The notes under the pieces are model-generated. The model was not told the origin of the DNA. It worked only from the letters and a program-made list of their open reading frames with translations, and searched no databases. The position numbers were made by a program, and so were the translations under genes. Positions 12,760 through 39,764 of a stretch of 64,000 nucleotides of DNA are shown piece after piece. Each line of letters opens with the position of its first letter. Position 1 is the first letter of the stretch. Origin of the DNA: Calothrix sp. NIES-4105 (GTDB lineage: Bacteria > Cyanobacteriota > Cyanobacteriia > Cyanobacteriales > Nostocaceae); contig NZ_AP018290.1 in the NCBI RefSeq assembly GCF_002368415.1, positions 6,523,614 to 6,587,613 on the forward strand, given 5' to 3'.

Positions 12760-12840
12760 TCCCCCCTAACCCCCCGATGATTTGGGCTACGTGTACACAC
12801 AAGTATCTTTTTCTTTTCTTTCTTCTCTTTCTTCTCTTTC

Positions 12841-12908
12841 TTTGTGTCCTTTGTGCCTTTGTGGTTCTTTAAAAAGATAAACCACGAAGAACACAAAGGG
12901 CACAAAGG
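12841..12908. repeat. Long inverted repeat between convergent rlmN and acyl-CoA dehydrogenase
   Basis: Arms built from CCTTTGTGCCTTTGTGG and CCACGAAGAACACAAAGG with a short AT-rich loop, preceded by a CTTTCTT-type tract. Related text (TGTGTCCTCTGTGTC near 22141, CTGCGTCTCTGTGG near 56175) recurs in the window. It can serve as a two-way terminator. Confidence 0.6.
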
Positions 12909-12934
12909 GGAGAAACAGTGCTTGAATTGTGTGT

Positions 12935-18778: not shown

Positions 18779-21711
18779 AGCCAGTTATCACCCAAAACGA
18801 AATTATCGCATTCTTAGCTGATATTCCCCCTTTTACCAAACTTCCAACTGCTTGTATAGAAAAAGTTGCCCTTAACTGTAAACTTTTACAATATCGTACT
18901 GGGCAGTGGATGTTGGTTAGGGAAAGAATGCCAGCACAAGTAATGGTAATCTATCAAGGAAGTGCGCGCGTGCTAGGCTATGACCAACGGCTAGAGTCAC
19001 AAGTTAGTCTGACTGTAGTCGATTCATGCGAGTTCCTCGGTTGGTTAAGCTTAGTTCGTGGTATTAGTTGTGAAACTGTTATTGCTTCGAGTGAAGTCAT
19101 TGCAATTGCTCTAGAAGCTGCTGAATTTTCGCAGTTGATGGACAAATTTCCAGAGTTTGCACAAGTGCTAGCACGTCCCCATATTACAGAAGTGTTTGAA
19201 CTTTTGAGTTTGGAAATGCAACGTCAAGCTTCGGGCGCCACGGATTTAAAAGAATTAACACGTCAAGTTTGGCAGCAGACTATTGTGGTGAATTTACCTC
19301 CCGGAAAAGTAAATTACCAGCAGTTGGACACTGACCTTTTATGGTTAATTAGTGCTGGCAGTATCGATAAACTTCCTGTTGGCAGTCGCTTATCGCTTGA
19401 AGAAGTTCATAATATTGGACACTGTAAAACTGCCGTCCGTTTGCTTGGTATTCCTTGGGGTATTCCCAAGAATTTGAAAGATGAAAATCCTTTGTCGGCG
19501 CCATTAGAAATTAAAGAGGCGCCAGAATATCCACTCCTCCCAACTGTTGATAGCTTCATACCAGCCCAAACTATATTTATATCGGGAAAAGGCACAATTG
19601 ATGCTCCGTTAGCCTGTTTCCAAATGTTGCATCGTATATTGGGGGGTGAATTTCGCCGCGATTTAATCCGCAAAGTATTAACAAATCAATTGAAATCTAA
19701 CTCACAGATTTCCTTACAAGTAGCGGGAGCAGTAGTGGAAATGATGGGTTTGCAAGCGCAATTAGTCAAAGTTCCAGCCCATGTCATCAACCGTATAAAT
19801 GCTCCAGCGCTGATTTATTGGCAAGATAGTTTAGCCCTGCTGTATAAAATTACAGAGCGCTTAATTGTAGTTGCAGTTCCAGAAACCGGAATCTCTGAAT
19901 ATTCTGTCGCCGAGTTTGCCCAAATTTGGGGACAGGTAGGACAAGTATTGATGGTGGAAAAGGGAGCAGAAGAACGTCCAGAAAAATTTAGTCTGAGATG
20001 GTTTCTACCTGCTGTCTCTAAATACCGTTTGGCATTGGTAGAAGTTTTCGTGGCTTCGTTTTTTGTCCAAATATTTGGGCTAGCCAATCCGATTATCACC
20101 CAAATCATCATCGATACCGTCTTAATCCAAAAAAGCTTGGATACTTTGGATATTCTAGGGATTTTCTTACTCATAATTGGCGTATTTGAAGCCATTTTAA
20201 CGAGTTTACGTACCTATTTGTTTGCTGACACTACTAACCGAATTGATATTCGCTTAGGGACAGAAGTAATTGAGCATCTTTTGCGACTGCCCTTAAATTA
20301 TTTTGAGCGTCGTCGTGTCGGAGAATTAGCAGGACGAATTAATGAACTAGAAAATATTCGACAATTTCTGACAGGTACAGCCCTAACAGTAGTACTAGAT
20401 GCCCTATTTTCGGTAATTTATATCGGGGTCATGCTGTTTTATAGCTGGGTGCTGACATTGGTTGCTCTTGCGACTGTACCCTTATTTGCAGTTCTGACAA
20501 GTTTTGTCGTACCCCTTGTCCAACGACAATTACGCAAAAAAGCCGAACGTTACGCCGATGCCCAATCCTATCTTGTAGAGGTACTTACTGGTATTCAAAC
20601 CGTTAAGGCACAAAATATCGAGTTAAAATCTCGCTGGCAATGGCGCGACCGCTATACCCGTTATATCAGCGCTGGCTTTAAAAATGTACTGACTGCCAGC
20701 ACTGCAAACTCTATTAGCAGCTTTTTAAATCAATTTTCTAGCTTTGTACTACTTTGGGTAGGAGCGCATTTAGTCATCTCTAATCAACTTAGTGTTGGAC
20801 AACTGATTGCCTTTCGTATCATTGCTGGTTACGTTACCAGTCCCTTACTGCGTTTAATGCAATTATCACAAAACTTTCAAGAAGTGGCATTGTCTATCGA
20901 ACGTTTGAGTGACATCTTAAATTCGGCGCCGGAAGTCCAACCAAGTGATAAAAATAATATTCCACTACCGCAAATTCAAGGAGCAGTCAAATACACCAAT
21001 GTTTCCTTTGGTTTTAACCCCGACGATACCTTACAACTGCTTAATATCAATCTAGATATCCCCGTCGGCACCTTTGTTGGTATCGTGGGACAAAGTGGTT
21101 CTGGTAAAAGTACGTTGACAAAATTATTACCTAGACTCTACGAACCTTTATCAGGGCAAATCCAAATAGATGGCTACGATATCAAGAAAGTAGAGTTAAA
21201 TTCTCTACGGCGCCAAATTGGGATAGTGCTACAAGATACCCTCCTGTTTGAAGGAACAATTCAAGATAATATTGCCCTAATTTGCCCAGAAGCCTCTACC
21301 GAAGAAATTATTGCTGCTGCCAAAGCTGCTGCTGCACATGATTTTATTATGGCACTACCTAACGGTTACAACACTATTGTCGGCGAACGCGGTTCTGCAC
21401 TTTCCGGTGGACAACGACAACGCATTGCAATCGCGCGTACAGTGTTACAAAATCCTCAATTATTAATTCTCGATGAAGCTACAAGTGCTTTAGATTACCA
21501 GCTTGAGCAAGAAGTATGCCGTAATCTCATGGAAGTTTTCCACAATAAAACAGTCTTTTTTATCACCCATCGCCTGAATACTGTCAGAAATGCTGATGTC
21601 ATCATCATTATGGATCGGGGTGCGATAGCTGAAATCGGAACTCACAAAGAACTTATGGCAATGAGAGGACGTTATTACTGTCTTTATCAACAACAAGAGT
21701 CGCAGTTTTAA
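18775..21711 (+). CDS. Type I secretion ABC exporter with cNMP-type and C39-like domains
   Basis: 978 residues. Order: a cyclic-nucleotide-binding-like beta domain (about 15-150), a C39-like domain (about 265-390), an ABC transmembrane domain (about 400-690), and an ATPase with GQSGSGKST (Walker A), LSGGQRQRIAIA (signature) and LLILDEATSALD (Walker B). In the C39-like part, the position of the peptidase cysteine (normally ECG) reads DAPLAC, so it is a non-cleaving, cargo-binding type as in RTX exporters. The ATG at 18775 overlaps the rotamase stop and is preferred over TTG at 18754. It resembles HetC-type exporters but the cargo is unknown; the CAP protein next door is a candidate. Confidence 0.93.
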   Translation: MKPVITQNEIIAFLADIPPFTKLPTACIEKVALNCKLLQYRTGQWMLVRERMPAQVMVIYQGSARVLGYDQRLESQVSLTVVDSCEFLGWLSLVRGISCETVIASSEVIAIALEAAEFSQLMDKFPEFAQVLARPHITEVFELLSLEMQRQASGATDLKELTRQVWQQTIVVNLPPGKVNYQQLDTDLLWLISAGSIDKLPVGSRLSLEEVHNIGHCKTAVRLLGIPWGIPKNLKDENPLSAPLEIKEAPEYPLLPTVDSFIPAQTIFISGKGTIDAPLACFQMLHRILGGEFRRDLIRKVLTNQLKSNSQISLQVAGAVVEMMGLQAQLVKVPAHVINRINAPALIYWQDSLALLYKITERLIVVAVPETGISEYSVAEFAQIWGQVGQVLMVEKGAEERPEKFSLRWFLPAVSKYRLALVEVFVASFFVQIFGLANPIITQIIIDTVLIQKSLDTLDILGIFLLIIGVFEAILTSLRTYLFADTTNRIDIRLGTEVIEHLLRLPLNYFERRRVGELAGRINELENIRQFLTGTALTVVLDALFSVIYIGVMLFYSWVLTLVALATVPLFAVLTSFVVPLVQRQLRKKAERYADAQSYLVEVLTGIQTVKAQNIELKSRWQWRDRYTRYISAGFKNVLTASTANSISSFLNQFSSFVLLWVGAHLVISNQLSVGQLIAFRIIAGYVTSPLLRLMQLSQNFQEVALSIERLSDILNSAPEVQPSDKNNIPLPQIQGAVKYTNVSFGFNPDDTLQLLNINLDIPVGTFVGIVGQSGSGKSTLTKLLPRLYEPLSGQIQIDGYDIKKVELNSLRRQIGIVLQDTLLFEGTIQDNIALICPEASTEEIIAAAKAAAAHDFIMALPNGYNTIVGERGSALSGGQRQRIAIARTVLQNPQLLILDEATSALDYQLEQEVCRNLMEVFHNKTVFFITHRLNTVRNADVIIIMDRGAIAEIGTHKELMAMRGRYYCLYQQQESQF

Positions 21712-24513: not shown

Positions 24514-25191
24514 ATGGCGCCAGCTAAAATCGCTTTAAAAACAACAGAAAACCAAGTCAAAACTCGCCTTTTACTCAGTTTGTGGGACTTAGGAGGCGCC
24601 ACACGGGAAGTGAAGCGCGGCGAATTGACCAAACGAATTGTTTCCAGGGGTAAAAAAGTTGCAGATTATCAAGAAGTCATTACCCAGTTAGAGAAGGAAG
24701 GCGCGCTAGTAATTTCTAAAAACGGCTATTCTTTAGTGGTGCCAGAAGGTTTGGAAGCGTTAAGCGAAGGATTAAAAAGTGCTGCTTTGAAGTTTGAAGG
24801 TAACACTGTAGGAACTTGGACAGCGAATGCATTGCTAAAGTGGATAAGTGAAAGTGGCAGGGCGCCAGTTGTAACATCTATATCCGTAAATGGGAATGGT
24901 AAGAAGAGCGAGATTAAATCTTATGACGAGTTCAAACAAGTAGCTCTAGATGTCTACGAACAACTCAACCGCGATTACAACCTCAATCATTTAGTGCCAA
25001 TTTATCGAATTCGTAGATCAATTGGCGAACAAGTAATCCGCTCTAATTTCAGTGAGTGGCTGCTGGAAATGCAAGCTAACGATATTTTACAACTACAAGG
25101 TGGAAGTGTAGAGGATAGCGCCCCTGACAAGATTGAAGATTCCATCACCACAGAATTAGATGGTTTACGCTGCTACGCGAGAAAACTTTAA
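24514..25191 (+). CDS. Module 1, gene A: winged-helix protein
   Basis: 225 residues from the ATG that aligns with copy 2 (both begin MA after GTT). Residues about 10-75 look like a winged helix: KTRLLLSLWDLGG, then GELTKRIVSRGKKVADYQEVI, then LEKEGALVISKNGYSLVVPEG, where the last strand pair would be the wing. A second helix-rich part (about 150-195) reads LVPIYRIRRSIGEQVIRSNF, then SEWLLEMQAND. Probably a DNA-binding or adaptor subunit of the ATPase/nuclease module; no named family recognised. It ends 32 bases before gene B. Copy 2 (29912) is clearly homologous over the full length. Confidence 0.75.
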   Translation: MAPAKIALKTTENQVKTRLLLSLWDLGGATREVKRGELTKRIVSRGKKVADYQEVITQLEKEGALVISKNGYSLVVPEGLEALSEGLKSAALKFEGNTVGTWTANALLKWISESGRAPVVTSISVNGNGKKSEIKSYDEFKQVALDVYEQLNRDYNLNHLVPIYRIRRSIGEQVIRSNFSEWLLEMQANDILQLQGGSVEDSAPDKIEDSITTELDGLRCYARKL

Positions 25192-25223
25192 CCAACAGCT
25201 ACTAATCTGGACAAAATATAGTT

Positions 25224-27107
25224 ATGACTAGCGCCACAAGCTTAATTGAAGAATTGATTACTAACAAAAATCCTTTTGCTGGACATATTGTTGTAAGACC
25301 TCAGCAAATATGGGGAAAAAGTTTTCCTGATGTGCCTTCAGTAAATGTTCACGCATCGAATGCTGTTTTTGATGCTGTGGCAAAAGTACGTCAAGGTCAA
25401 CGTGAAACTGTTGGTATTACTATTACAGCAGAAAAGGGTCTTGGTAAAAGCCATATAATTAGTAGAATTCGTAAACAATTGCGGGCTGAAGAGGATACAC
25501 TATTTGTCTACATGAGTAAGTACGACAATTTAAATCAGCTTAAGTATCAATTTCTTCAGTCTGTTGCTGCCAGCCTTAGAGTTATTGATAATCAGAATAT
25601 AATGCAATGGCAAAAGATTGCCACAGCTTTAATTAACGAATCGCAGAATAAAAATCATACGCCTCAGCAATATATACAATCTTTTCCTGCGTGGTTAAGT
25701 CAATATTCTCACAAAATTGTTGATACTTTAACTCAATATGTCTTGCAAAAAAAACCAGAAATTACTAATCCTTATATTATCAGGGCTATTATATGGACAT
25801 TATCGCCAGTTCATAATAGCTACGCAAACTACTGGTTATCTGGTCTAGAATTGACTCAAACCCAAGCTGAAGAAATGGGTTTGCCAAGTCCAAAAACGGA
25901 GGATAGAGAAGCAGAAGCGCTCACTAATATCCGTCAAGTACTAGATATTATTAGTGATTACTGTATTCCTGTTATTTGCTTTGATGAGTTGGATACTACA
26001 GAAGTCAACGAAATGGGTTTTTCTACCGCTCAATTAGTAGCTGGTATGACCAAAGATTTATATAACAACCTCAAACGAGGTGTTTTGTTACTAGCAATGT
26101 ATCCCAATACTTGGAACGAGCAAATTCGAGCTTTACCCCAGGTAGAAGCTGTTATAGATAGATTGGTAAGTGAGCAATCTAACAGGCAACCTATTACGCT
26201 TAATTATCTTAATTCAGATGATGTTGTCGCTATTGTGAAACAATGGCTACAGGATTTTTATCAAGATAATCAAGTAGTTCCACCACATTTATTATACCCA
26301 TTTCAGGAAAATAAACTCAGAGAGTTTGGTAAAAGTAAGCCAACAGTTAGGTCTGTATTAAAATGGTGTGCAGATAATTTTGCTATATCTGAAGAAAAAA
26401 CTGTATCTGTTATATCTAACCGTGTTGATATATATTTTCAAAATGAGTTAAAAAGTATTGAAGCTAATGTTGATTCTTTGATGGAAGATGAAGTGGTAAT
26501 TTCTAATGCCCTTTATCTTGCTTTTATTAGCTTAGTAGGAAAAACTTTAGAAGGCGTAACAATTGATAATGTGGAAGAAGTTAAAGCTAGTGCAGCAGAA
26601 CAATATATTGACTTCAAAGTAGTTTGTAATCAAGGCAATATCAAAATTGGTGTAGATGTTATTCAACAATCAGGAAGTAAATATATAGGAGCTGCATTAA
26701 AACGATTAATCGACTATAAAAAGTTTGACCTCACTCGCGGATGTATAATTCGTTCAAAAACAATTAGTCCAACAGCAAAAATAGCTAGGGAATGTTTGCA
26801 AAAATTATTGAAGGAACAAGGTGGCGAGTGGGTAATGCTGCAAAGGGAAGATATTAAATCACTTCTTGCTATATCTTCTGTTTACTATGTTTATGCTTGT
26901 GAAAATTATGAACTAACAAAGGAGGAGATTTTTGATTACATTGATAAAAATAAGCTTGCTTTTAATAATCCTCTTATTCGAGAGATTTTAAGTGACCCGT
27001 CTGGACAAGAACCTAATAATTTAACAAATGATGAATTACCAATAAGGATTCCTCAAACTAATCATTATTTATTAGATAAAATCGACCTTGAATTAGTGGC
27101 TAAATAA
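25224..27107 (+). CDS. Module 1, gene B: P-loop (AAA+-like) ATPase
   Basis: 627 residues, cytosolic. Walker A is AEKGLGKSH (about residue 70) and Walker B is PVICFDELD (about residue 250), both with the usual catalytic residues. The C-terminal third alternates strands and helices (DFKVVCNQGNIKIGVDVIQQ, then RGCIIRSKT, then GGEWVMLQREDIKSLL), reminiscent of a restriction-endonuclease-like fold whose active site has been lost; this is inference. It lies between the winged-helix and nuclease genes (gaps 32 and 2 bases), so it is one operon. No GGCGCC site occurs in the gene, unlike its neighbours. Confidence 0.82.
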   Translation: MTSATSLIEELITNKNPFAGHIVVRPQQIWGKSFPDVPSVNVHASNAVFDAVAKVRQGQRETVGITITAEKGLGKSHIISRIRKQLRAEEDTLFVYMSKYDNLNQLKYQFLQSVAASLRVIDNQNIMQWQKIATALINESQNKNHTPQQYIQSFPAWLSQYSHKIVDTLTQYVLQKKPEITNPYIIRAIIWTLSPVHNSYANYWLSGLELTQTQAEEMGLPSPKTEDREAEALTNIRQVLDIISDYCIPVICFDELDTTEVNEMGFSTAQLVAGMTKDLYNNLKRGVLLLAMYPNTWNEQIRALPQVEAVIDRLVSEQSNRQPITLNYLNSDDVVAIVKQWLQDFYQDNQVVPPHLLYPFQENKLREFGKSKPTVRSVLKWCADNFAISEEKTVSVISNRVDIYFQNELKSIEANVDSLMEDEVVISNALYLAFISLVGKTLEGVTIDNVEEVKASAAEQYIDFKVVCNQGNIKIGVDVIQQSGSKYIGAALKRLIDYKKFDLTRGCIIRSKTISPTAKIARECLQKLLKEQGGEWVMLQREDIKSLLAISSVYYVYACENYELTKEEIFDYIDKNKLAFNNPLIREILSDPSGQEPNNLTNDELPIRIPQTNHYLLDKIDLELVAK

Positions 27108-27109
27108 CT

Positions 27110-28624
27110 ATGGGTCAGAATTTTTCTATTTCAGCAGCTTTATGTCTACCCACTCCTGATATTGAAGCTTTAATTCAAGGGCGCCAAATTGTTGCTTTAC
27201 CTCGGATGTTTCTTCGTCCCGGACAGGTATTTGCTCTTTATCCAGTAAATACAGCAAGTCAGCTTTCCTATGAGAAGTACTACCGCGCGAGTTTCTTACC
27301 TGTGGCAAACAATGCTGTAACTCACCAAGGTACTTTACTTCAACCTCGTCAACTCAGCTTGCTTACACAAACCGAACAGTTACAACTTCCTCTGTTAGTG
27401 GATGAAACAGTTCAAGTTAAAGCAATGGCGCGCTGCGAGTGTTGTGAAATCCTTGATAGCACAGCACAAGTAGATGTTTTATCAAAGTTAACTATCTGGG
27501 CGCCCGCAACATTACAAGAGCTACTTGAACAACGTCAGCACATCTTCTTAGCTTACCTGCGCGTTTACCAGTTGCCGCAACCTCTAGATGTACCTGCTAA
27601 TCTTGGTCAAAAGGAAAAGTTAGGAAAATTTATTGGTCTACCTAACTCACTCACAGTTCCAGAAGCAAACCCAGTGTTGAGCGATAATACTTTTGCTATC
27701 CGTAAGCAGCAACTCGAAAAGCGTCAACCTCCATTACACCAGGAATTAGAAGAATTTCTTGGTACTCTAATACCGATTACCAACTCTGCCGCAAAGCAAT
27801 TAGAACAAGATATTCAAATATTTCTAGGTTGGAGGCGCCCAACAAGAGCAGCATCCAACGACACAGATTTAATCTGGATACGGAAAATTGCAGAAGTTGG
27901 TAACTCAAGCGATGGACACAGTTTTGAAAAACTCGTTCGTAGAAGCTTGTTAAAACTGGGTTTTACTGGTTCTGGACTAAACCCTGAAGGAACAGGTGGC
28001 GCCGGAGGCATGGATTTTTACTGCGAATATCCATACCCAGTAGTTGGTGAGTGCAAAGCTACTAAATCAGAAAAGGTTCCTGATGGTGTAGCTGCACAGC
28101 TTCTCAAAATAGGTGTGAATCATTTAGGAAAAACGCAGTACGAACCTACGATTAAATTAATTGTTGCAGCAGGTGAGTTAACTTTTTACGCACAAAGAAC
28201 AGCTACTGAACACTATATGAACGTAATTACACCTGAAACTTTACAAAAACTAGTTGAATTACAAGCCAGTTATAAAAACTCGATTAATTTATTAGAACTT
28301 AAGGAGTGTTTACAACAAGCACCTTTTGGTATAGCTGACGAGAAAGTTAATAAATATATAGATAAAGTCAATCAAGATATTAAATTGCGCGCGCAATTAG
28401 TCCAGCTTGTCAAAAGATACCTGGAAAATACAGGCTACGAACATGCAAGTGTTGAAGGTCTACATGGTTTTGTCGCTGGAGCATCAATTAAAATTAAACC
28501 GCAAGAACTACACGAAATGTTAGTTGAACTCTCATCACCGCTCGCTGGTTATTTAGGAAGAATTAAAGGCGAAGATTGGCGCCGGGACAGGTTTTATTTC
28601 CTTCGTAATTTACTATTTAATTAA
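27110..28624 (+). CDS. Module 1, gene C: DUF1802 plus PD-(D/E)XK nuclease
   Basis: 504 residues. The N-terminal part (about 15-165) resembles DUF1802: ALIQGRQIVALPR, QVFALYPVN, and LSKLTIWAPATL followed by AYLRVYQLPQP. The second part (about 275-390) is a restriction-like nuclease: FEKLVRRSLLKLGF supplies the first Glu, GGAGGMDFYCEYPYP the Asp, and VVGECKATK the E-x-K. This order is that of Mrr-type PD-(D/E)XK enzymes. A helical tail ends YLGRIKGEDW. It begins 2 bases after gene B. The tail is far more conserved between copies than the N-terminus, suggesting gene conversion. Confidence 0.85.
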   Translation: MGQNFSISAALCLPTPDIEALIQGRQIVALPRMFLRPGQVFALYPVNTASQLSYEKYYRASFLPVANNAVTHQGTLLQPRQLSLLTQTEQLQLPLLVDETVQVKAMARCECCEILDSTAQVDVLSKLTIWAPATLQELLEQRQHIFLAYLRVYQLPQPLDVPANLGQKEKLGKFIGLPNSLTVPEANPVLSDNTFAIRKQQLEKRQPPLHQELEEFLGTLIPITNSAAKQLEQDIQIFLGWRRPTRAASNDTDLIWIRKIAEVGNSSDGHSFEKLVRRSLLKLGFTGSGLNPEGTGGAGGMDFYCEYPYPVVGECKATKSEKVPDGVAAQLLKIGVNHLGKTQYEPTIKLIVAAGELTFYAQRTATEHYMNVITPETLQKLVELQASYKNSINLLELKECLQQAPFGIADEKVNKYIDKVNQDIKLRAQLVQLVKRYLENTGYEHASVEGLHGFVAGASIKIKPQELHEMLVELSSPLAGYLGRIKGEDWRRDRFYFLRNLLFN

Positions 28625-28647
28625 TCTCCTAAAGTTAATATACCTGC

Positions 28648-28986
28648 CTAATAATTGACTGTTAAAGGCAATATTTTTAACCACTCTGAACCTAATAATA
28701 TTTCTGTAAGTTGATTATTGGCACACACTGGAATTTCATATTCTTGTCCATCGATTAGTACTTTACCTTGATAAATAGTAAATTTACTTTCCCCCTGTGC
28801 AGTTTGGAGTTTATCACGACGTAAATAAATCCAACTGAAACAATCTAAATCTTGTTTATTCATAGCTAAAAAGCCTGTAAAGCCAGTATCTAACATTGCC
28901 TCTACAGGCAACTTTGAGCCATCGACTCCAACTAACTCTATTTCAAAAACTAGCTGACCTCTATCACCAAAAACACCCTGAATCAT
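28648..28986 (-). CDS. Retropepsin-like aspartic protease, unit 1 (C-terminus shortened)
   Basis: 112 residues of clan AA type. The active-site motif AMLDTGFTGFLAM is at about residue 31 and the hydrophobic-hydrophobic-Gly motif ILLGSEW near residue 92. One such chain should dimerise to form the site. Intact copies end LTVNYQAGILTLGD; here the Gln codon is a TAG, so the last nine residues are lost while the remaining sequence persists to about 28622. The ATG overlaps the stop of the 105-codon gene (ATGA), so expression is coupled. The gene is convergent to module 1. Confidence 0.85.
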   Translation of the reverse strand: MIQGVFGDRGQLVFEIELVGVDGSKLPVEAMLDTGFTGFLAMNKQDLDCFSWIYLRRDKLQTAQGESKFTIYQGKVLIDGQEYEIPVCANNQLTEILLGSEWLKILPLTVNY

Positions 28987-29300
28987 ATCGTGCCTGAAAC
29001 TCCAGTTTCATTAATTCCAAACATATGGTGAATAACATTTGGGTACTTTTGACGGGCTTTTAAACTAGCGGTTTCTTTGTCTTTATCAATGAAATAATCG
29101 CCACTGTCCGGTTCTATAGCAATATACCAGCCATAATATTGGTCTATAAGTTCAGGCAGTAGTTTCTGAAAAATTATTTCACAACGCTCGCTAAATGCTT
29201 CTTCTTCTGCTGTGCGTCTAGCTAATTCTTCTTGTGAAATTTGCAGGTTAGGGAAGATTCTTCCTCTACGCGCGCGCGGTTTTTGTACAGATTCAGTCAT
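28983..29300 (-). CDS. 105-residue partner of the protease, unit 1
   Basis: A small soluble protein with a basic N-terminus (RARRGRIFP), a central charged helix and a C-terminal part with YYGWYIAIEPDSGDYFIDKD, weakly like DUF5678. Four copies in the window are all 105 residues from the conserved start MTES. An upstream extension to 29438 is out of line with the other copies and is rejected. It is translationally coupled to the protease, so a substrate, inhibitor or targeting role is plausible but not shown. Confidence 0.75.
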   Translation of the reverse strand: MTESVQKPRARRGRIFPNLQISQEELARRTAEEEAFSERCEIIFQKLLPELIDQYYGWYIAIEPDSGDYFIDKDKETASLKARQKYPNVIHHMFGINETGVSGTI

Positions 29301-29911
29301 ACTTATCTCAGCTTGTAGAATGTATATATTATATATCGTATTTATTTTCAAATTACTGCTTAGTAATAATTTTTTAAATATTGTTATCAGGCATAGTGAT
29401 ATTTTTATTAGTAAGCAATATGTATTATGTTTTACCAACTGCTCCTGTTTTATTTAAGCAGAATACACAGTGGTCTGTATTTGGATATTTTTCAAGCTCT
29501 TTATTATTTTTATTTCTGTGATTTACTAGTTAAATAGCTTATCCTAAGCGCGTCAGTATACCTGCTTAGTAATTTACGAGTAATTCAAGCGTCAAACAGT
29601 AATACGTTTAAGTTACATACTAGAAATTGACTAAACTATTCATTAAACAATGAGTGGGATGGGCATCCTCGCCCGTCCCTTTCTAGTTTTCTTACATGAT
29701 TATATAACTGTGTAAATAAAAAAATTATTTTCTATTTACAGAGTACTTCAATATAATCAACTTATTTCTTGTGACATATTTCTTTAGGAAGATTTTGATT
29801 TAATTTGCTTTATACTATCGTCTCGATAGAAATTTTCCGGGTATTTACTTAAACATAAACAAAGTAATATTTCATTATAATAATCTGAGGGTGTCAAATA
29901 ATACAGTAGTT
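29301..29911. other. Region between unit 1 and module 2, with duplicated boundary sequence
   Basis: Contains the likely promoter of unit 1 (AT-rich GTATATATTATATA about 29319), a short protease-tail remnant (GTCAGTATACCTGCTTAG about 29551), and a block at 29576-29755 that recurs at 35538-35710. That block holds the GGGATGGGCATCC...GTCCC palindrome (29656-29680). The module 2 promoter must lie here. Confidence 0.6.
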
Positions 29912-30586
29912 ATGGCATCAAAAAACACGTTGTCAAAAAGTATGGAAGTTCAAGCTAAAACTCGTCTTCTTCTTGCTTTGTGGGATTTAGGCGCCACTGG
30001 GCAGGAAGTAAAAAAAGGTGAGGTTACAAGGCGAATTGTTACAAAGGGCAAGAAAATTGCCGATTATCAAGATGTATTTAAAGAACTGGAGAAAGAAGGA
30101 GCGATTATCGTTTCTAAAAAAGGCTACTCGCTTGCGACTCCAGAGGGTTTGGAGTCTTTGAGTAAAGGTTTGAGAAGTTCAGATTTCCGTTTTGAAGGAA
30201 CTATTGTTGGTACTTGGGCAGCTAATGCACTCCTAAAGTGGATAAGTGAAATGAATGGCGCCGTAGCTAGTAAGTCTGTATCTACAAACAACGTTAAAAG
30301 CGCTATTGCATCTTATGACGAGTTTAAGTCCGAGATTCTTGACTTGTTTGAGAAGTTAGACAAAGGCCATGTTTACGGTGGACTAGTACCGATTTGGCAT
30401 TTGCGCGAAGCTTTAGGAGAGCGAGTCAATCGTCATAACTTCAACGATTGGATGATGGAAATGCAAGCAGAAAAGTTGCTATATCTCCAAAGTGGTGAAC
30501 ACCGTGGAGCAACAAAAGAACAGAAGGATGCCTCAATTGAAAATGAAATTAGAGGACTGTTGTTTTACGCTAGCCAACCATCTTGA
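29912..30586 (+). CDS. Module 2, gene A: winged-helix protein
   Basis: 224 residues, collinear with the copy at 24514. KTRLLLALWDLGATG, GKKIADYQDVFKELEKEGA, FEGTIVGTWAANALLKWISE and LVPIWHLREALGERVNRHNF correspond block by block. A GTG at 29891 is an alternative start with GAGG right before it, but the ATG at 29912 matches copy 1. It ends 27 bases before the preferred start of gene B. Same inferred role: DNA-binding or adaptor subunit. Confidence 0.75.
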   Translation: MASKNTLSKSMEVQAKTRLLLALWDLGATGQEVKKGEVTRRIVTKGKKIADYQDVFKELEKEGAIIVSKKGYSLATPEGLESLSKGLRSSDFRFEGTIVGTWAANALLKWISEMNGAVASKSVSTNNVKSAIASYDEFKSEILDLFEKLDKGHVYGGLVPIWHLREALGERVNRHNFNDWMMEMQAEKLLYLQSGEHRGATKEQKDASIENEIRGLLFYASQPS

Positions 30587-30613
30587 GAAAAAATGGAGGA
30601 AGCTATAACAGAC

Positions 30614-32407
30614 ATGACAGACCCATATGTATTATTTGAGCAGGCACGTAAACGAAGCCCAAACCCTTTTAGTCAAAAAACAGTAATAGCTGATACAGAG
30701 ATTTGGGGTCACGTCATGAGTGACCTCTCCAGTCTCAACCAGCATATTGATTTGGCAATAGAACAGGCAATTTCTGATGTTAGGCAAGAGTTTTCTAACC
30801 AGCTTGGAATTGCTATTAAAGGTGATAGGGGAACAGGTAAGAGCCACGTTATTCATCGAGTATGGAAAAAGATTGAAAAACAAGGAGGTGCAGTTTTTGC
30901 TTACATACCTCCCTGTAATACTTCTAATCGAATCCAGTCTCATGTACGCTTTTATCTTTCTGAAAGCTTTAATCACCAAGACGTGCATAAAACGACTCAA
31001 TGGCAAAAGCTAGCTATTGCGGCAATGCTAACTCTCAAAGGAACAGAATATGAAGAAAAGTATCGGGATTATCTGGAAAAATCTGCTCAAGTTAAGCAGT
31101 TGAAGAAGTATATTCAGCAGACTAATGTAGCTAAAAGCGACTTGTTCGGCTTTTTTGATGATTTGGCAGAATCTATTCTAGAAAATCAACCGCAACTAGA
31201 TTTTTATTTCCTTAAAGCAGTTCTATTATCTCTCTTAACACCTGTGAAAGAAGCCCAACTTGCTTTATCTTGGATAAGAGGTGATGAGACTCTTGGTACT
31301 CATGAATTAGGTTTACCCCAGCAATCAGATGCTAAATCCATATGGATGATACAGCAAATATGTAAGCTAGCCAAAGTTGCTTCATTACCTGTTGTAATTT
31401 GCTTTGACCAACTAGATAGTGTTGAACCTGATACTGAAAGTGGAGATAGTCCTGCTCAAACTATAGCTAGATGCATTGACCAGATTTATTCTCAATGCAG
31501 TAACGTGATTCTCCTTTGTTGTGTTATTAGCGACACATGGAGGGAAATTAAACATATGGGAAGTGGAATCCCTAATAGGGTCGGTCAGCGACAAGTGACA
31601 GCAAATCCTCCAAATGAAGAGGAAATGCTAGAGCTTGTTAGATTAAGATTAAGTTGGTTCTACGAAACTAACAATCTTAATCCTAATGATTATCCTCCTC
31701 TGTATCCTTTGGAGGAAGAACAAATAAAAATGATTGCTAACTCCTTTGCTGGTGTACGTTCTTTATTAGAAGAATGTGCTAAAAAGTTTGAATTAGACAA
31801 AGCAATAAGCACACTAGAAGTGAAAAAGAAAAAAGTTCAAGAAATTTATTCGGAACTATCAAGTAAAGTCTCTATTCCAATGAATGATGATACTAAACTT
31901 GCGGAAGTGATTTCTTTAACTATGAAAATGATTCCTGATGAAGGTACTGGAAATGTTATAGTAAATAAAGTAGAACCGTTGAAAAGTTCATCACATAATT
32001 TACACTTAATCATTTCTGGGTACGATCAGCTTCAAAATAAAGATGTAAAAATTGGGGTAAGAGTATGTGAAACAAACCAGTATCGAACATTTAATGCTGT
32101 AATGACTAGATTGTTAAAATACGAAACTTATAAAATAACTCGCGGTTGTTTAGTACGTTCTACTCCTGTACCTAAAACTTGGAAATCGAGCCAAATACTT
32201 AAACAAGAACTTGAGAAGGAAAAGGGTGGAGAAGTTGTGGATAATTTTAAAAAAGATGATATTAAGGCTTTAGTGGCTTTAGAAACAATGTATTCACAGG
32301 CAGAAAATTATGGTTTTGAAAAACAGGAGCTAATTAATCTTATCAAAGATCTGAAGCTCGCAGCTAATAATCCACTACTTGATGAAATTTTAAGTACTCC
32401 TGTATAA
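30614..32407 (+). CDS. Module 2, gene B: P-loop ATPase with altered Walker B
   Basis: 597 residues from the ATG at 30614, which matches the MT start of copy 1 and has GGAGG upstream; 30593 is an alternative. Walker A is KGDRGTGKSH. Walker B is PVVICFDQLD, with Gln where copy 1 has the catalytic Glu, so ATP hydrolysis may be slowed or lost. The C-terminal third keeps the VKIGVRVCE ... RGCLVRS ... KKDDIKALVAL pattern of copy 1. The gene has no GGCGCC site. One base separates it from gene C. Confidence 0.82.
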   Translation: MTDPYVLFEQARKRSPNPFSQKTVIADTEIWGHVMSDLSSLNQHIDLAIEQAISDVRQEFSNQLGIAIKGDRGTGKSHVIHRVWKKIEKQGGAVFAYIPPCNTSNRIQSHVRFYLSESFNHQDVHKTTQWQKLAIAAMLTLKGTEYEEKYRDYLEKSAQVKQLKKYIQQTNVAKSDLFGFFDDLAESILENQPQLDFYFLKAVLLSLLTPVKEAQLALSWIRGDETLGTHELGLPQQSDAKSIWMIQQICKLAKVASLPVVICFDQLDSVEPDTESGDSPAQTIARCIDQIYSQCSNVILLCCVISDTWREIKHMGSGIPNRVGQRQVTANPPNEEEMLELVRLRLSWFYETNNLNPNDYPPLYPLEEEQIKMIANSFAGVRSLLEECAKKFELDKAISTLEVKKKKVQEIYSELSSKVSIPMNDDTKLAEVISLTMKMIPDEGTGNVIVNKVEPLKSSSHNLHLIISGYDQLQNKDVKIGVRVCETNQYRTFNAVMTRLLKYETYKITRGCLVRSTPVPKTWKSSQILKQELEKEKGGEVVDNFKKDDIKALVALETMYSQAENYGFEKQELINLIKDLKLAANNPLLDEILSTPV

Positions 32408-32408
32408 A

Positions 32409-33875
32409 ATGAGTATAGAAATAATAAATGGAATTCAACTACCTGCTTATGATGTTGAACTGCTTAATTCCGGTGAACTTATTGCAGTACCATTCAAACA
32501 ATATAAGCGAGAAGGTGAAGTATTTTGGCTTTATCCTAGTCAGCAAATACCATTTAATTTAGAGATAGAGCAATATTACCAAGCTCAACATATAGTGAAT
32601 GCTAGAAAAGCAATAGCTAGAAGCGCAAGATACCCAATAGAAATAAAAGCTTGGGCACGTTGTGAGTATCACTGGCATGTTTATTCTGAGCTAAGAGATT
32701 ACTTGTATACAATTGCACAATCATCTGTCTGGAACTTAAGTGCTTTAGAACATATTCTTGAACAGCATCAAGTCCTAAAATTGTTGCTACTGCGGGTATA
32801 TCGTTTATCAAATCCTTGTATAGTTAATGTACGTACAGCACCTGGCACATTCTATTGGGCTAAAGCTGAAGATTTGATAAATATGGCTAGTGAAAATGAT
32901 ACACCAGTGGTTTCTAATGTCAGCTTTAATAAACGTAAAACTATTTTATTAAGTGGAAAAGCCTACCCTAATACAGGTATAGAGGCTTTGCTATTTCAAT
33001 GTGAGCAAATTTTAGATAAGAATTCGAGTGCTAAACAGTTTAGCTACGATATTCAAAAGTTTTTAGGTTGGATTGATGAGAAACCAGCAAAAGAAGTAAA
33101 TCCAAATTTAGCTTGGATAAACGATATTGCAGCTTTAGGAAATCGTAGTAAACAAGAGGATGAGGGTAAAAGTAATTATCAAGCTGGAACTGATTTTGAA
33201 AATGTAGTTCGTAACAGTCTTGAATTCTTAGGCTTCACTATTGACTATTATCATAAAGGTGGCGCCGGAGGCTTAGATTTATTTTGCTCTAAACCATACG
33301 CATTGGTTGGTGAGTGTAAAGCTGGTAAGAAAATTCCTAACGATACGGCTGTACAATTACTTAATTTAGCTACTCTGCGATTGCAAAATCAAGAATTATT
33401 TAAACAAGCTACTAAATTAATTATTGGACCAGGTGAAGCGACAACTCAATTAGAAGAAGCAGCAAAGTTACACGGTATGGCTATTATAAATCCAGAAACG
33501 CTTGAGAAGCTAGTAAAGCTACAACATGCTTATCCGAACTCAATTGACTTATTTAAACTTAAAGAATATTTAGAACCTGGCAAATCCGATGAAAGTGTAG
33601 AGAAATATATTAACCAGATTTATAGTGAAATTAATTTGCGCGCGCAACTAATTCAACTTGTGAAAAAATATATTAACAATACAGGTTCTGAACAAGCCAA
33701 TGTTGATGAGGTACATGGTTTTGCCGTTGCAGCATCAATTAAAATTAAAAAGCAAGAACTACACGAAATCCTAGTTGAACTATCATCCCCACTTACAGGC
33801 TACTTGGGACGAATTAAAGGGGAAGACTGGCGCTATGACAAGTTTTATTTCCTTCGTGATTTACTAGTTAGCTAG
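32409..33875 (+). CDS. Module 2, gene C: DUF1802 plus PD-(D/E)XK nuclease
   Basis: 488 residues, homologous to 27110 over its length. DUF1802-like part: NSGELIAVPFKQY, EVFWLYPSQQ, VWNLSALEHILEQHQVLKLL followed by LLRVYRLSNP. Nuclease part: FENVVRNSLEFLGF, GGAGGLDLFCSKPYA and LVGECKAGKK, so Glu, Asp and the E-x-K are intact. The N-terminal half is much more divergent from copy 1 than the last 150 residues. It ends at the edge of the convergent protease gene. Confidence 0.85.
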   Translation: MSIEIINGIQLPAYDVELLNSGELIAVPFKQYKREGEVFWLYPSQQIPFNLEIEQYYQAQHIVNARKAIARSARYPIEIKAWARCEYHWHVYSELRDYLYTIAQSSVWNLSALEHILEQHQVLKLLLLRVYRLSNPCIVNVRTAPGTFYWAKAEDLINMASENDTPVVSNVSFNKRKTILLSGKAYPNTGIEALLFQCEQILDKNSSAKQFSYDIQKFLGWIDEKPAKEVNPNLAWINDIAALGNRSKQEDEGKSNYQAGTDFENVVRNSLEFLGFTIDYYHKGGAGGLDLFCSKPYALVGECKAGKKIPNDTAVQLLNLATLRLQNQELFKQATKLIIGPGEATTQLEEAAKLHGMAIINPETLEKLVKLQHAYPNSIDLFKLKEYLEPGKSDESVEKYINQIYSEINLRAQLIQLVKKYINNTGSEQANVDEVHGFAVAASIKIKKQELHEILVELSSPLTGYLGRIKGEDWRYDKFYFLRDLLVS

Positions 33876-34241
33876 CTAATCTCCTAACGTCAGGATACCT
33901 GCTTGATAATTAACTGTTAAAGGCAAAATTTTTAACCATAATGAACCTAGCAAAACTTCTGTGATATGATTACCTGCATAAACAGGCAGTTCATACTCTT
34001 GCTCATCTAATACTATTTTTCCCAGATATTTTTCAAGACGCACTTGCCCTTGTGGCGTAACCATCCATTCATTACCATTGAAAACCCAGCCGAAAGTATC
34101 TATATCTTGTTTATTTATAGCTAAAAAGCCTGTGAAACCAGTATCTAGCATGGCTTCCACAGGCAACTTTGAAGTATTTGAAGCAACTAATTCAATTTCA
34201 AACAATATGTGCCCAACCTCGTCAAACTTACCCTGTATCAT
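33876..34241 (-). CDS. Retropepsin-like aspartic protease, unit 2
   Basis: 121 residues from the MIQG start that overlaps the stop of the partner gene (ATGA). An 11-codon upstream extension to 34274 is not conserved. AMLDTGFTGFLAI carries the catalytic Asp-Thr-Gly and EVLLGSLW is the second motif. Full-length C-terminus ILTLGD. The stop abuts the stop of the convergent module 2 nuclease with no spacing. Soluble; substrate unknown. Confidence 0.88.
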   Translation of the reverse strand: MIQGKFDEVGHILFEIELVASNTSKLPVEAMLDTGFTGFLAINKQDIDTFGWVFNGNEWMVTPQGQVRLEKYLGKIVLDEQEYELPVYAGNHITEVLLGSLWLKILPLTVNYQAGILTLGD

Positions 34242-34555
34242 ATTCTGCCAACTGCTCCTGTTTCCGAAAGGCAAAAAACACAGTGGTTAGGATTTGGGTA
34301 TTTTTTAATGGCTCTACTATGAGCAGATTCAAGATTCTGGTCAATTAAATATTCTCCGCTATCTGGCTCTACAGCTATATACCAACCATAGTATTTATCT
34401 ATCAACTCAGGACGTACACGCTCAAAAATGGCTCGGCAGCGCTGGTCATAGATTTCATCAAGAGCTTTTCGCCGTGCTAATTCTTCTGGTGATAAGGTGC
34501 GTTCAGGAAAGATTCTTCCTCTACGTGCGCGCGGTTTCTGTACAGATTCAGTCAT
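34238..34555 (-). CDS. 105-residue partner of the protease, unit 2
   Basis: Starts MTESVQKPRARRGRIFPER and ends NETGAVGRI-type (SETGAVGRI). Same length as the other three copies. YYGWYIAVEPDSGEYLID is conserved. An upstream extension to 34600 runs through the AT-rich promoter and is rejected. Coupled to the downstream protease by ATGA. Confidence 0.78.
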   Translation of the reverse strand: MTESVQKPRARRGRIFPERTLSPEELARRKALDEIYDQRCRAIFERVRPELIDKYYGWYIAVEPDSGEYLIDQNLESAHSRAIKKYPNPNHCVFCLSETGAVGRI

Positions 34556-35049
34556 AATAATCTCAGCTGCTGGACTGTATACATTATATATTGTATTCAT
34601 TTTTATCTTACTACTTAGTAATAACTGTTTAACTTTTATTATCTATCAAAGTAATATTTATCATTAGTCGCAGTATGTATTATATTTTACTAACTGTTGC
34701 GCTTTTATTTATACAGAACACGTAGTAGTCTACATTCTTAAGTTTGAGGCTACTAAAGTTAACGGAAACTTTAATTTAATACAAGTAATTGTACTAAAGA
34801 CTTTTAAACTCGGAATGGTTATTTTTTAGATATATAGCAGTTTGAAATATTTCGTACAAATGATGCATTGTATGGATGTGTAAACCGGAGATTTTTCCGC
34901 TGGGATATATCACGTCTTTACATGAAGATGTTTTTTACGATTTATAACCTAATTGCTATAGTATTCGATTTGATTGGTTTCAAATAAAAGTTGATTAATA
35001 AAATCGTAAAAAGATTGAAGTTCACAAAATTTTTTGATTTCTGAAAAAT
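34556..35049. other. AT-rich gap after unit 2
   Basis: Holds the unit 2 promoter region (GTATACATTATATATTGTA at about 34577, shared with 40590) and a CTACTTAGTAATA element common to several units. The rest, up to the membrane protein at 35050, is AT-rich with no repeat that I can place. Confidence 0.5.
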
Positions 35050-35502
35050 ATGTTATTGAATTTTTTCTGCAAGCGCTACTTAAGTGTGATTGCAATTAGC
35101 TTTGCTGCGTTTTCGACACTCGCACCTGCACCTGCACATGCTAGAGGGACAATTATTGTTAACACTGGTGAAGAACTCTTTGAGGTAGCTGATTTTCCTC
35201 AGAACATGGTTGACGAATATCCTGGTCTAAAAGATTACAAAGTATCATATGCGTGCCAGCGTTTCGGCATATTTTGGGCAAATGTATGGACGTGGGACTG
35301 TAAGTTAATGGCAGGAAACATTAGCACAAATACTATAGCTGACATACCGCAAGAGTTTATGCCAACACTGCAACAACAGTATCCATTTGATAAAGCACAG
35401 CGTAATTTCTGGAACAAATACGGAATCATAACAATGTTGAGTGTTTTCATACTGCTGTGTGTAATGCAAGTAGTGATTAAGTCTCCAGCCACAGAAGCGT
35501 AA
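35050..35502 (+). CDS. Small exported or membrane protein, unknown
   Basis: 150 residues. The N-terminus is a signal-peptide-like stretch (RYLSVIAISFAAFSTLAPAPAHA, cleavage likely after AHA). A soluble domain with many aromatic residues and two cysteines follows (SYACQRFGIFWANVWTWDC). A C-terminal membrane segment reads IITMLSVFILLCVMQVVI. I recognise no family. It lies between unit 2 and the broken third module, so it may belong to the array or be an insertion. No copy of it accompanies the other modules. Confidence 0.6.
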   Translation: MLLNFFCKRYLSVIAISFAAFSTLAPAPAHARGTIIVNTGEELFEVADFPQNMVDEYPGLKDYKVSYACQRFGIFWANVWTWDCKLMAGNISTNTIADIPQEFMPTLQQQYPFDKAQRNFWNKYGIITMLSVFILLCVMQVVIKSPATEA

Positions 35503-35537
35503 CTCCAAACGGCGCCACAATTACAAAATAAAACTTC

Positions 35538-35710
35538 GAGTAATTCAAGCGTCAAACAGTAATACATTTAAGTTACATGCTAGAACTTGAATAAACTATT
35601 CATTAAACAATGAGTGGGATGGGCATCCTTGACCGTCCCTTTATAATTTATTTACATCATTATATAACTGTATAAAAAAATATTTGCTATTCACAGAGTG
35701 CTTCAACATT
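35538..35710. repeat. Second copy of the pre-module block (from 29576-29755)
   Basis: The block from GAGTAATTCAAGCGTCAAACAG through CACAGAGT(G/A)CTTCAA is nearly the same at 29576 and 35538. In the first place it leads to module genes A-B-C. Here it runs straight into the 3-prime half of a gene C copy, so it marks a deletion joint near 35700. Confidence 0.85.
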
Positions 35711-36337
35711 GGCGCCTCTGGAATGGATTTTTACTGTGAGTATCCCTACCCAATGGTAGGTGAGTGCAAAGCTACTAAATCAGAAAAAGTTCCCGATAGT
35801 ACGCCTGCACAGCTTTTAAAAATTGGCATGAACCATTTGGGTAAAGCACAGTACGACAACGCGATTAAATTAATAGTTGCAGCAGGTGAGTTAAATTCCT
35901 TTGCTATTAGAACAGCTACTGAAAACGGTATGAACGTGATTACACCAGAAACTTTACAAAAACTTGTTGAATTACAAGCAAGCTATAAAAACTCGATTAA
36001 TTTATTAGAACTTAAAGAGTGTTTGCTTTCATCGCCATTTGGTATAGCAGACGAAAAAGTTAATAATTATATAGATAAAGTCAATCAAGATATTACACTG
36101 CGCGCGCGATTAGTCCAACTTGTCAAAAATTAGCTTGAAAATACAGGTTTTAAACGTGCAAGTGTTGATGCACTACATGGTTTTATTGCCGGAGCATCGA
36201 TTAAAATTAAACCGCAAGAACTACACGAAATCTTAGTTGAACTCTCATCACCGCTCGCTGGTTATTTAGGAAGAATTAAAGGCGAAGATTGGCGCCGGGA
36301 CAGGTTTTATTTCCTTCGTGATTTACTAGTTAATTAG
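35702..36337 (+). pseudogene. Module 3 remnant: 3-prime half of nuclease gene C
   Basis: It keeps the active-site half of the nuclease (GMDFYCEYPYPMVGECKATK) and the whole tail to YLGRIKGEDW ... FLRDLLVN, but genes A, B and the DUF1802 half are missing. The TAC codon of the conserved KRYLE (copy 1) is TAG at 36131-36133, interrupting the frame. It is closer to module 1 than to module 2. Its stop abuts the broken protease of unit 3, as in module 2. Confidence 0.88.
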
Positions 36338-36702
36338 CTAATCTCCAAATGTCAATATACTTGCTTGATAATTGACTGTTAAAGGTAAAATTTTTAACCA
36401 TGCCGAACCCAGTAGTATCTCTGTAATAGCTCTACCTGCAAATACTGGAATTTCATATTCTTGTCCATCTAAAATTATTTTTCCTAAATACATTTGGAAT
36501 AATTTTTTTCTTGCGCTGTTACCATCTCTTGTTTACCAAGAAAAGGCCACTCAAAACCGTCTAAATCTTGTATATTCATAGCTAAAAAGCCCGTAAAGCC
36601 AGTATCAAGCATAGCTTATTCAGGCAATTTTAATTCACGGTTTGCAATTAACTCTATTTCAAACAGTAGATGCCCCACATCATTAAACTTGCCATTTATC
36701 AT
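36338..36702 (-). pseudogene. Broken retropepsin-like protease, unit 3
   Basis: The start (MINGKFNDVGHLLFEIELIA) overlaps the partner stop as in the other units. The LPVE codons before the active site have become LPE then TAA (about 36615), and a frameshift follows near 36510. The active-site AMLDTGFTGFLAM and the tail EILLGSAWLKILPLTVNYQA are still legible. The partner gene upstream is intact. Confidence 0.85.
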
Positions 36703-37016
36703 ATTCTACCTGTTGCTCCGCTTTCATTCAGACAAAATACGCAGTGGTCAGCATTTGGATACTTTGCAAGTGCTTTTTTGTGTGCTTCTATGTTATCTTT
36801 GTCAATCAAATACTCTCCACTATCTGGCTCCACAGCAATATACCAACCGTAGTATTTATCAATTAATTCAGGACGTACACGCTCAAAAATTTCTCGACAG
36901 CGCTGGTGAAAGATTTCATCAAGAGCTTCTTGCCGTGCAAGCTCTTCGGGTGTCATCGCTCTTTTAGGAAAGATTTTACTGTGTCGTGTGCGTGCTTCTT
37001 GTGTTGATTCAGTCAT
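36699..37016 (-). CDS. 105-residue partner of the protease, unit 3
   Basis: Intact frame: MTESTQEARTRHSKIFPKR, then RQEALDEIFHQRCREIFERVRPELID and KYYGWYIAVEPDSGEYLIDKD. It survives although its protease is broken, so it may have a function of its own or the break is recent. The basic RARRGR of other copies is changed to RTRHSK. Confidence 0.75.
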   Translation of the reverse strand: MTESTQEARTRHSKIFPKRAMTPEELARQEALDEIFHQRCREIFERVRPELIDKYYGWYIAVEPDSGEYLIDKDNIEAHKKALAKYPNADHCVFCLNESGATGRI

Positions 37017-39398: not shown

Positions 39399-39764
39399 CT
39401 AATCTCCTAGCGTTAAAATACCTGCTTGATAATTAACTACTAATGGCAAAATTTTTAACCAAGCTGAACCTATTAATACTTCTGTAATTTCATCGCCAGC
39501 ATAAACTGGTATTTCGTACTCTTCTCCATCTATATAAATTTTACCAGAATACCTATCAAAAGTATTTTCTCCACTGGCGGTTATCATCTCTTCTTCACCA
39601 ATATATGCCCATTGCAAGGCATCTAAATCTTGGTTACTAATAGCTAAAAGACCTGTGAAACCTGTATCTAACATAGCTTCCATAGATAAGTTTAATCCAT
39701 CAGCACCAATTAAATTAATCTCAAAAAATATATGCCCAACATCGTCAAACGTACCTTGTATCAT
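39399..39764 (-). CDS. Retropepsin-like aspartic protease, unit 4
   Basis: 121 residues. AMLDTGFTGLLAI holds the Asp-Thr-Gly motif and EVLIGSAW the second motif. It ends QAGILTLGD like unit 2. The ATG overlaps the partner stop (ATGA). This unit has no A-B-C module beside it: to its left is the TPR-like gene. Confidence 0.88.
   Translation of the reverse strand: MIQGTFDDVGHIFFEINLIGADGLNLSMEAMLDTGFTGLLAISNQDLDALQWAYIGEEEMITASGENTFDRYSGKIYIDGEEYEIPVYAGDEITEVLIGSAWLKILPLVVNYQAGILTLGD

Follow-up and report, generated by a model that had tools for sequence, protein, structure and literature searches.

A conserved three-gene locus of cyanobacteria that varies in two blocks at a common chromosomal site is a candidate restriction-type system

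Introduction

What kind of system is encoded by three adjoining genes that stand twice in tandem in the chromosome of Calothrix sp. NIES-4105? The genes encode a winged-helix-like protein (A), a P-loop ATPase (B), and a protein that joins a DUF1802 domain to a PD-(D/E)XK nuclease (C). They lie in a stretch of 64,000 nucleotides (RefSeq assembly GCF_002368415.1, contig NZ_AP018290.1, positions 6,523,614 to 6,587,613 of the forward strand), referred to here as the window, in which two complete A-B-C modules in tandem, followed by the broken remnant of a third C, occupy positions 24514-36334, upstream of pgi. An earlier reading of the sequence, hereafter the original prediction, proposed that the modules are an undescribed conflict system. 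We report that A-B-C is a real three-gene system, conserved among relatives, whose most likely role is restriction of invaders, and that it is a variant of a type outlined briefly in 2024. What is chiefly new is that it varies by cassettes at a common site.

Results

Co-occurrence, operon structure, and chromosomal site

Distribution of the three genes was analyzed in 243 genomes of the order and in a sample of 386 genomes of the phylum. With thresholds for close family members (about E 1e-60 or better for A, 1e-100 or better for B, and 1e-3 for C), A was found in 103 of the 243 genomes, B in 117, and C in 110; 98 genomes had A and C, 107 had B and C, and 96 had all three. Both A (Fisher p 2.6e-47) and B (p 1.2e-52) were associated with C, in tests that ignore relatedness among the genomes. 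Loose thresholds gave a match to A in 132 genomes and to B in 176. In the phylum sample, C was present in 55 genomes: 33 of the 43 of its own family, 17 elsewhere in the order, and 5 in other orders of the class.

When genome contigs were scanned once for C, 265 relatives emerged; we retained the best 80 as named loci, all cyanobacterial according to their titles. Among these best 80, the closest by C identity were from Calothrix (83-84% for three). Complete modules, 83 in number, were present in 78 of 81 loci (the 80 named loci and the window, all fetched by C), L112, L136, and L142 being those without one, and B and C were separated by 20 bases or less in 73 of 86 cases. Taken together, co-occurrence and operon conservation indicate that A-B-C is one functional unit. 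Joint occurrence across genomes was one of the checks that the original prediction had proposed.

The surroundings of the modules were also compared. In the flanks covered for the 80 named loci, pgi was recognized in 38, mutM in 33, mdh in 22, and at least one of these in 48, and pgi is present in the window as well. The gene names were read from the sequences; Pgi was confirmed by Pfam in the window. The original prediction had considered that the genes might be housekeeping genes conserved at a fixed place in all strains. This applies in part: the site lies beside housekeeping genes in many loci, but presence is patchy (110 of 243 and 55 of 386 genomes). Tandem modules occurred in the window, L099, L101, L105, and L116. 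In L034 and L038, an extra gene, presumably of the Uma2/DUF820 family, stands between B and C.

Variation in two blocks

Block statistics were computed for 32 of the 80 named loci, each with Pgi in the stretch and a single copy of A, B, and C above the length limit; multi-copy loci were excluded. Pgi identity was at least 0.95 in 64 pairs over 23 loci. For these close pairs, median identity was 0.89 in the N-terminal part of A, 0.65 in the tail of A, 0.48 in the ATPase part of B, 0.61 in DUF1802, 0.68 in the nuclease, and 0.87 at the end of C, and both ends were at least 0.75 identical in 62 pairs. Identity of B correlated with that of the A tail (0.93) and of DUF1802 (0.91), the value for the nuclease being -0.16. 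Mantel tests on all 496 pairs of the 32 loci, with Pgi regressed out, gave 0.86 for B versus the A tail, 0.78 for DUF1802, -0.09 for the nuclease, and 0.11 for the N-terminal part of A (p 0.098). When the close pairs were sorted by identity of B and of the nuclease, in that order, 3 were high-high, 6 high-low, 20 low-high, 18 low-low, and 17 intermediate. A-B-C has two independently varying blocks, one made up of the A tail, B, and DUF1802 and the other of the nuclease, between conserved ends.

Over all pairs, correlation with Pgi identity was 0.89 for Mdh (15 loci), 0.90 for MutM (23 loci), and 0.96 for UrtC (27 loci); the corresponding values were 0.79 for A, 0.63 for C, and 0.27 for B. A cluster labeled UrtD (r 0.62) provided no clean control because it also contains other ABC ATPases and paralogues.

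Sharp nucleotide breakpoints were seen in several of 10 hand-chosen pairs. L079 and L088 were 88-93% identical along A, 57% at the end of A, and 39-72% in B; C started at 56-66% over its first third, and 90-96% followed, with 73% in the last interval compared. For C of L079 and L143, identity began at 89-93%, dropped to 53-68% over the nuclease part, and ended at 88%. Other pairs were less clean: L085 and L091 showed almost even identity apart from a late drop in B, and L079 and L125 fell only to 58-88% in B. Between L074 and L077, the differences extended to A and upstream.

Alleles were then counted with a limit of 0.75 identity. A single-linkage cluster of 11 genomes at Pgi 0.97 had one allele of the N-terminal part of A, seven of B, six of DUF1802, and five of the nuclease, with 10 combinations of B and nuclease. 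One of five other clusters (Pgi 0.95; 2 or 3 genomes each), made up of L085 and L091, had a single allele of everything. Assembly chimeras were rejected as the cause of the mosaic, since the pattern persists when loci titled MAG (metagenome-assembled genome) are removed. In the 25 of 64 pairs that are left, B was low and the nuclease high in 9, both were low in 7, B was high and the nuclease low in 2, both were high in 1, and 6 were intermediate; seven genomes without MAG in the title and with Pgi identity of at least 0.97 had five B alleles and three nuclease alleles. The source of the alleles may be other strains, or it may be tandem copies that have since disappeared. Our literature searches, none of which was aimed at cassette exchange in such a system by name, met no description of it.

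Domains and predicted folds of the three proteins

The composition that the original prediction gave for C agrees with our results. DUF1802 (PF08819) was matched strongly by both copies in the window (C1, E 2.4e-32; C2, E 2.6e-17), and Mrr_cat (PF04471) weakly, below cut-off (E 0.0015 and 0.017). Mrr_cat was found in 54 of 63 C proteins at E up to 1 (best 5.5e-05). A Pfam note reportedly links DUF1802 with Mrr-type nucleases; in the literature searched, DUF1802 was named in one paper, which deals with soil gene networks. The catalytic residues, described earlier as intact in both copies, are so: the tetrad E273-D302-E314-K316 (C1 numbering) is present in C1 and C2. We surveyed this tetrad in loci L034-L173 and the window, where merging of identical C and removal of those shorter than 380 amino acids (aa) left 121 distinct proteins. 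It was kept in 116 of these, including all 113 that adjoin a B, and was damaged in 5 of 7 solo C. The solo C with a kept tetrad were a truncated C in L076 and a C behind a shortened A in L070; one more C, at a contig edge, also retains it. An active-site-intact nuclease is therefore kept beside B and mostly lost without B. In L117, a second tandem C whose active site is lost (11570-13015) stands directly behind an A-B-C with an intact C, and is perhaps an inactive partner or decoy.

A model of C (predicted local distance difference test [pLDDT], 86.0; predicted template modeling score, 0.60) was compared with the PDB using Foldseek. MspJI was the first match (E 2.1e-3), followed by a run of ASCH structures, some with double-stranded DNA (dsDNA). 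The Zymomonas ASCH structure 5guq was matched at probability 1.00 with a template modeling (TM) score by target of 0.53-0.55, and TRIP4 ASCH with dsDNA ranked lower. The model thus suggests that DUF1802 of C resembles ASCH/PUA-like domains, the placement of ASCH on DUF1802 being judged from size and topology. A winged helix-turn-helix (wHTH) model of BrxC was matched by 4 of 63 C proteins, at E 0.011 or worse.

For B, the P-loop ATPase of the original prediction, B1 and B2 matched only generic NTPase models, below cut-off, and B1 scored 25.5 bits against NCBIfam ATPase_Sll1717, far under its cut-off of 75. The AlphaFold2 model of B1 (pLDDT 87.3), which has an alpha/beta region at residues 445-538, had 13 PDB matches with E <0.001, including ORC subunits, Cdc6, and RdrA, a component of the RADAR defense system; TnsC (E 2.3e-3) and BrxC ranked lower. 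From this predicted fold we read B as an ORC/Cdc6-like AAA+ ATPase. Among 124 B proteins, 112 of them distinct, the Walker A pattern was present in 107 of the 112. PF10923 BrxC_BrxD (E 0.0016) and DUF87 HerA (E 0.0098) were each matched by 1 of 31 B proteins, and the B of L171 weakly matched NA-iREase1 (E 0.099).

No profile match of A was above cut-off. Weak winged-helix matches recurred, with SelB-wing_2 matched by 10 of 31 A proteins (best E 0.0023). Sequence searches of the PDB, by profile for each of the three proteins and by single protein for B and C as well, gave nothing secure.

Sister operon and lone B genes

Searches with A and B also returned A'-B' pairs (A' at E of about 1e-8 to 1e-16, B' at about 1e-27 to 1e-35). 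Such sister pairs were present in L154-L161 and L173, with several A'/B' copies in L161. The protein after B' in L156, L160, and L173 combines a 3'-5' exonuclease, a PD-(D/E)XK nuclease, and FtsK/SpoIIIE; in L155, it is a PD-(D/E)XK-FtsK protein without the exonuclease, and beside the pairs of L157-L159 no such nuclease protein was among the matches listed. A-B-like pairs thus accompany more than one kind of nuclease. In L162-L166, L168, and L169, B stands without A and C within the stretch covered, in long open frames; in L162 and L163, this lone B lies downstream of a gene read as mdh, which is perhaps the ancestral site.

Layout of the window and genomic context

Features of the locus are listed in Table 1. 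All six module genes are open and on the + strand, with intergenic gaps of 32, 2, 6, and 1 bases within the modules, which confirms the two complete, uniformly oriented operons of the original prediction. The two copies are divergent, as it had stated, with identities of 0.28 between B1 and B2, 0.64 in the N-terminal part of A, and 0.82 at the end of C. Decay next door was likewise found. The remnant C3 aligns over 35711-36334 to C1 residues 297-504 with 84% identity and one internal TAG, and has an open frame at 35684-36133.

Table 1. Coordinates of the modules, the exchanged blocks, and the pgi landmark in the window
Feature	Position	Strand	Description
A1	24514-25191	+	225 aa; N-terminal part weakly winged-helix-like; residues 178-223 in exchanged block 1
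B1	25224-27107	+	627 aa; predicted fold of an ORC/Cdc6-like AAA+ ATPase; Walker A pattern present, Walker B reads FDELD; C-terminal region alpha/beta
C1	27110-28624	+	504 aa; DUF1802 at 10-201; PD-(D/E)XK Mrr-like nuclease at ~255-385; C-terminal helical region
A2	about 29912-30586	+	open reading frame (ORF) from GTG 29891; limits used in analyses, 29915-30583
B2	30593-32407	+	604 aa; divergent allele, 0.28 identity to B1; Walker B FDQLD
C2	32409-33875	+	488 aa; divergent DUF1802 and nuclease; tetrad intact
C3	35684-36334	+	3' remnant of a third C; TAG-interrupted
Exchanged block 1, copy 1	25045-27589	+	A tail, all of B, and the DUF1802 half of C; approximate limits, from relatives
Exchanged block 2, copy 1	27857-28504	+	nuclease of C and the region after it; approximate limits, from relatives
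pgi	41442-43025	-	site landmark common to many relatives; outside the system

On the 3' side of the modules, pgi is followed by transporter genes, and this downstream side is therefore the neighborhood common to relatives; the 5' side, with HlyD and ABC transporter genes, is unlike that of relatives. The source genome (12.04 Mb, 8 contigs) encodes a stand-alone DUF1802 protein of ~200 aa elsewhere.

A repeated pair, convergent with C, consists of an aspartic protease of clan AA (TIGR03698, below cut-off in each of the two copies scanned) and a partner of ~105 aa, at 28648-29300, 33876-34600, 36699-37016, and 39399-40078 of the window (three pairs and one lone partner, all on the - strand). It is possibly a dispersed two-gene unit. 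We set it aside as an extra component of the system because only 19 of 80 loci have a protease less than 2.5 kb beyond the 3' end of their last C.

PADLOC was run on 10 module-region proteins, where C2 gave the one weak match (PDC-S01, E 0.0017), and on 26 C proteins, which gave six weak families, with Csn2 the best (E 1.3e-4, one member) and a CARF-PDDEXK model (E 5.3e-4, two members) also among them. Of 10 window neighbors, only the ABC transporter at 18754-21711 was matched, by four models (mad3 best, E 1.7e-32); Pfam identified an ABC transporter with a C39 peptidase there, and we read these matches as common ABC ATPase similarity. No transposase was noticed among the first 45 recurrent neighbor clusters, read by eye.

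Discussion

We favor, as the probable role of A-B-C, restriction-type action on invading DNA, by a system that is driven by ATP and anchored in the chromosome. In such a system, B would assemble on DNA with the wHTH-like A, the ASCH/PUA-like DUF1802 of C would sense the state of the DNA (modification or another feature), and B would then license cutting by the PD-(D/E)XK domain of C. That the target is DNA, that a complex forms, that DUF1802 senses modification, and that B gates the nuclease are what we infer. Since the A tail and DUF1802 both vary with B, they presumably touch it, and block exchange may change specificity or answer changing invaders or their inhibitors. The hypervariability of A-B-C is typical of conflict genes. 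Together with the behavior of A-B-C as one unit and the retention of the nuclease beside B, it sustains the conflict role of the original prediction; a defense-island setting, which it had proposed to check, found no support, the only PADLOC match among the 10 window neighbors being the ABC transporter.

Several observations weigh against this interpretation. No defense-island setting was seen in the PADLOC scan of those 10 neighbors or, by eye, in the flanks of the other loci. The site adjoins housekeeping genes in many loci. With C as the query, there was no match in 72,556 plasmid records or 50,697 phage records, and 67 pattern stretches in viral contigs yielded none that was confirmed. Co-occurrence is incomplete, as C lacks A in 12 genomes and B in 3, and C is missing from 5 genomes with A and from 10 with B; A and B genes exist without C, as A alone in L170 and L172 and as A-B in L171. 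The 64 close pairs share loci and so are not independent. The five damaged solo C represent only about three lineages, and independence is accordingly overstated by the Fisher p of 1.1e-7 for loss of the tetrad. In the model of C, the ASCH matches have weak E values (5.5e-3 or weaker) and no match is below 0.001; no Pfam ASCH match was among the 25 listed of 45 families matched by C. An hhalign comparison of the DUF1802 part with an ASCH alignment (ORFs from 4 of 6 ASCH-search loci, one a 32-aa scrap) gave no match, which we do not count against the fold match because that alignment was too thin. The TM-scores of the B model are low (0.23-0.30 by query for the ORC/Cdc6 rows with E <0.001), its root-mean-square deviations are high, and two mitochondrial ribosome chains are among its 13 matches, for which reasons the ORC/Cdc6 clade of B is a reading and not proof. 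Walker B reads FDQ, with Gln for Glu, in 13 of the 112 distinct B, B2 included. This could mean ATP binding without hydrolysis, and hydrolysis is perhaps not required everywhere.

The same domains could serve other ends. In abortive infection, B would sense an invader product and C would degrade all cell DNA, DUF1802 being an inhibitory or docking domain rather than a reader. The tendency of the nuclease to decay once A and B are gone would suit an activator-dependent effector, and RdrA is among the B-model matches. Modification-dependent restriction enzymes need no suicide. Their layout, a PUA-superfamily domain with a nuclease as outlined in PMC7897488, speaks for restriction, and we regard abortive infection as unlikely. 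A house complex for DNA repair or replication restart would pair a loader like ORC/Cdc6 with a wHTH protein and a nuclease that recognizes structure, and would act on the host's own damaged DNA. In its favor are the proximity of the site to mutM, mdh, or pgi (48 of 80 named loci), the presence of C in 33 of 43 genomes of its family in the phylum sample, and the lack of mobile copies of C in the collections searched. We judge it distinctly unlikely, as C was not found in 133 of the 243 genomes of the order, B identity barely follows that of Pgi (r 0.27; Mdh, 0.89; MutM, 0.90), and block-wise variation is unexpected for a house repair enzyme.

The mosaic itself might have arisen without any selection for diversity, as an old tandem array crossed over unequally and lost its copies differentially; the function could then be anything. 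Tandem modules in five loci (window, L099, L101, L105, L116) are in keeping with this, and the conserved ends would act as crossing-over points. Seven B alleles and 10 B-nuclease combinations in 11 genomes at Pgi 0.97 are many for neutral sorting, which makes this origin improbable, although an array could still supply alleles. A transposon or mobile-element cargo or remnant, with B as a TnsC-like regulator, draws on TnsC among the B-model matches. We reject it as highly improbable on the absence of C from plasmid and phage records and viral contigs (searched with C only), the lack of a noticed transposase in the neighbor clusters read by eye, and the common chromosomal site.

Within the restriction-type interpretation, we tentatively consider that A-B-C may be a combinatorial immune locus. 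Recombination at one site would swap a recognition-motor cassette made up of A tail, B, and DUF1802 and, independently, a nuclease cassette between constant ends, giving sister strains different sensor-effector pairings; DUF1802 would read modified or marked invader DNA, and tandem copies would be a local store of alleles. If the restriction-type interpretation is right, strains with near-identical Pgi and different cassettes can be compared directly, and nature has already parted sensor and effector in them. Many cyanobacteria would gain a chromosomal system against invaders, and DUF1802 would gain a role. A-B-C would also be a conflict system that diversifies at its own site by exchanging blocks, with neither islands nor mobile elements involved, and searches based on islands would miss such systems.

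The word undescribed in the original prediction was too strong, because a sentence of PMC10853773 (2024) names operons, treated as mobile neighborhoods, in which Orc/Cdc6 goes with an ASCH-fused restriction endonuclease (REase) and a triple-wHTH protein. Compared by description, the same three component types are predicted here: an ORC/Cdc6-like ATPase, a nuclease with an ASCH-like domain, and a wHTH-like protein. Mrr_cat and the EDEK tetrad of C would be the counterpart of the active REase. Those operons are described as mobile, whereas A-B-C is chromosomal, at a common site, and varies cassette-wise; in the main text of PMC10853773, the string "cyanobacteri" is absent and DUF1802 is not named. 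In the literature searched, PMC12839542 was the only other paper to mention ASCH, restriction, Cdc6, wHTH, and nuclease together.

Passages of PMC10853773 also cover HerA/FtsK systems with Orc/Cdc6 and a 3'-5' exonuclease, and HerA/FtsK-linked relatives in which an inactive REase lies between the AAA+ core and a C-terminal wHTH. These resemble the sister operon of L156, L160, and L173, with its distant relative of A, AAA ATPase B', and exonuclease-nuclease-FtsK protein C'; a HerA/FtsK match is clear only in that operon, and A, B, and C of the window have none. Like RADAR (RdrA) and BREX (BrxC), B has a predicted AAA+ fold, but no PglZ, BrxX, or BREX methyltransferase match was found among the 10 module-region proteins. 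PUA/ASCH background is given in parts of PMC7641849 and PMC7897488, the latter describing modification-dependent restriction enzymes as a PUA-superfamily domain with a nuclease (MspJI, SRA-PD-(D/E)XK; VcaM4I, EVE-HNH). C, too, fuses a reader-like domain to a nuclease, and MspJI is the first PDB match of its model; unlike enzymes of this type, C shares its operon with an ATPase and a wHTH-like protein.

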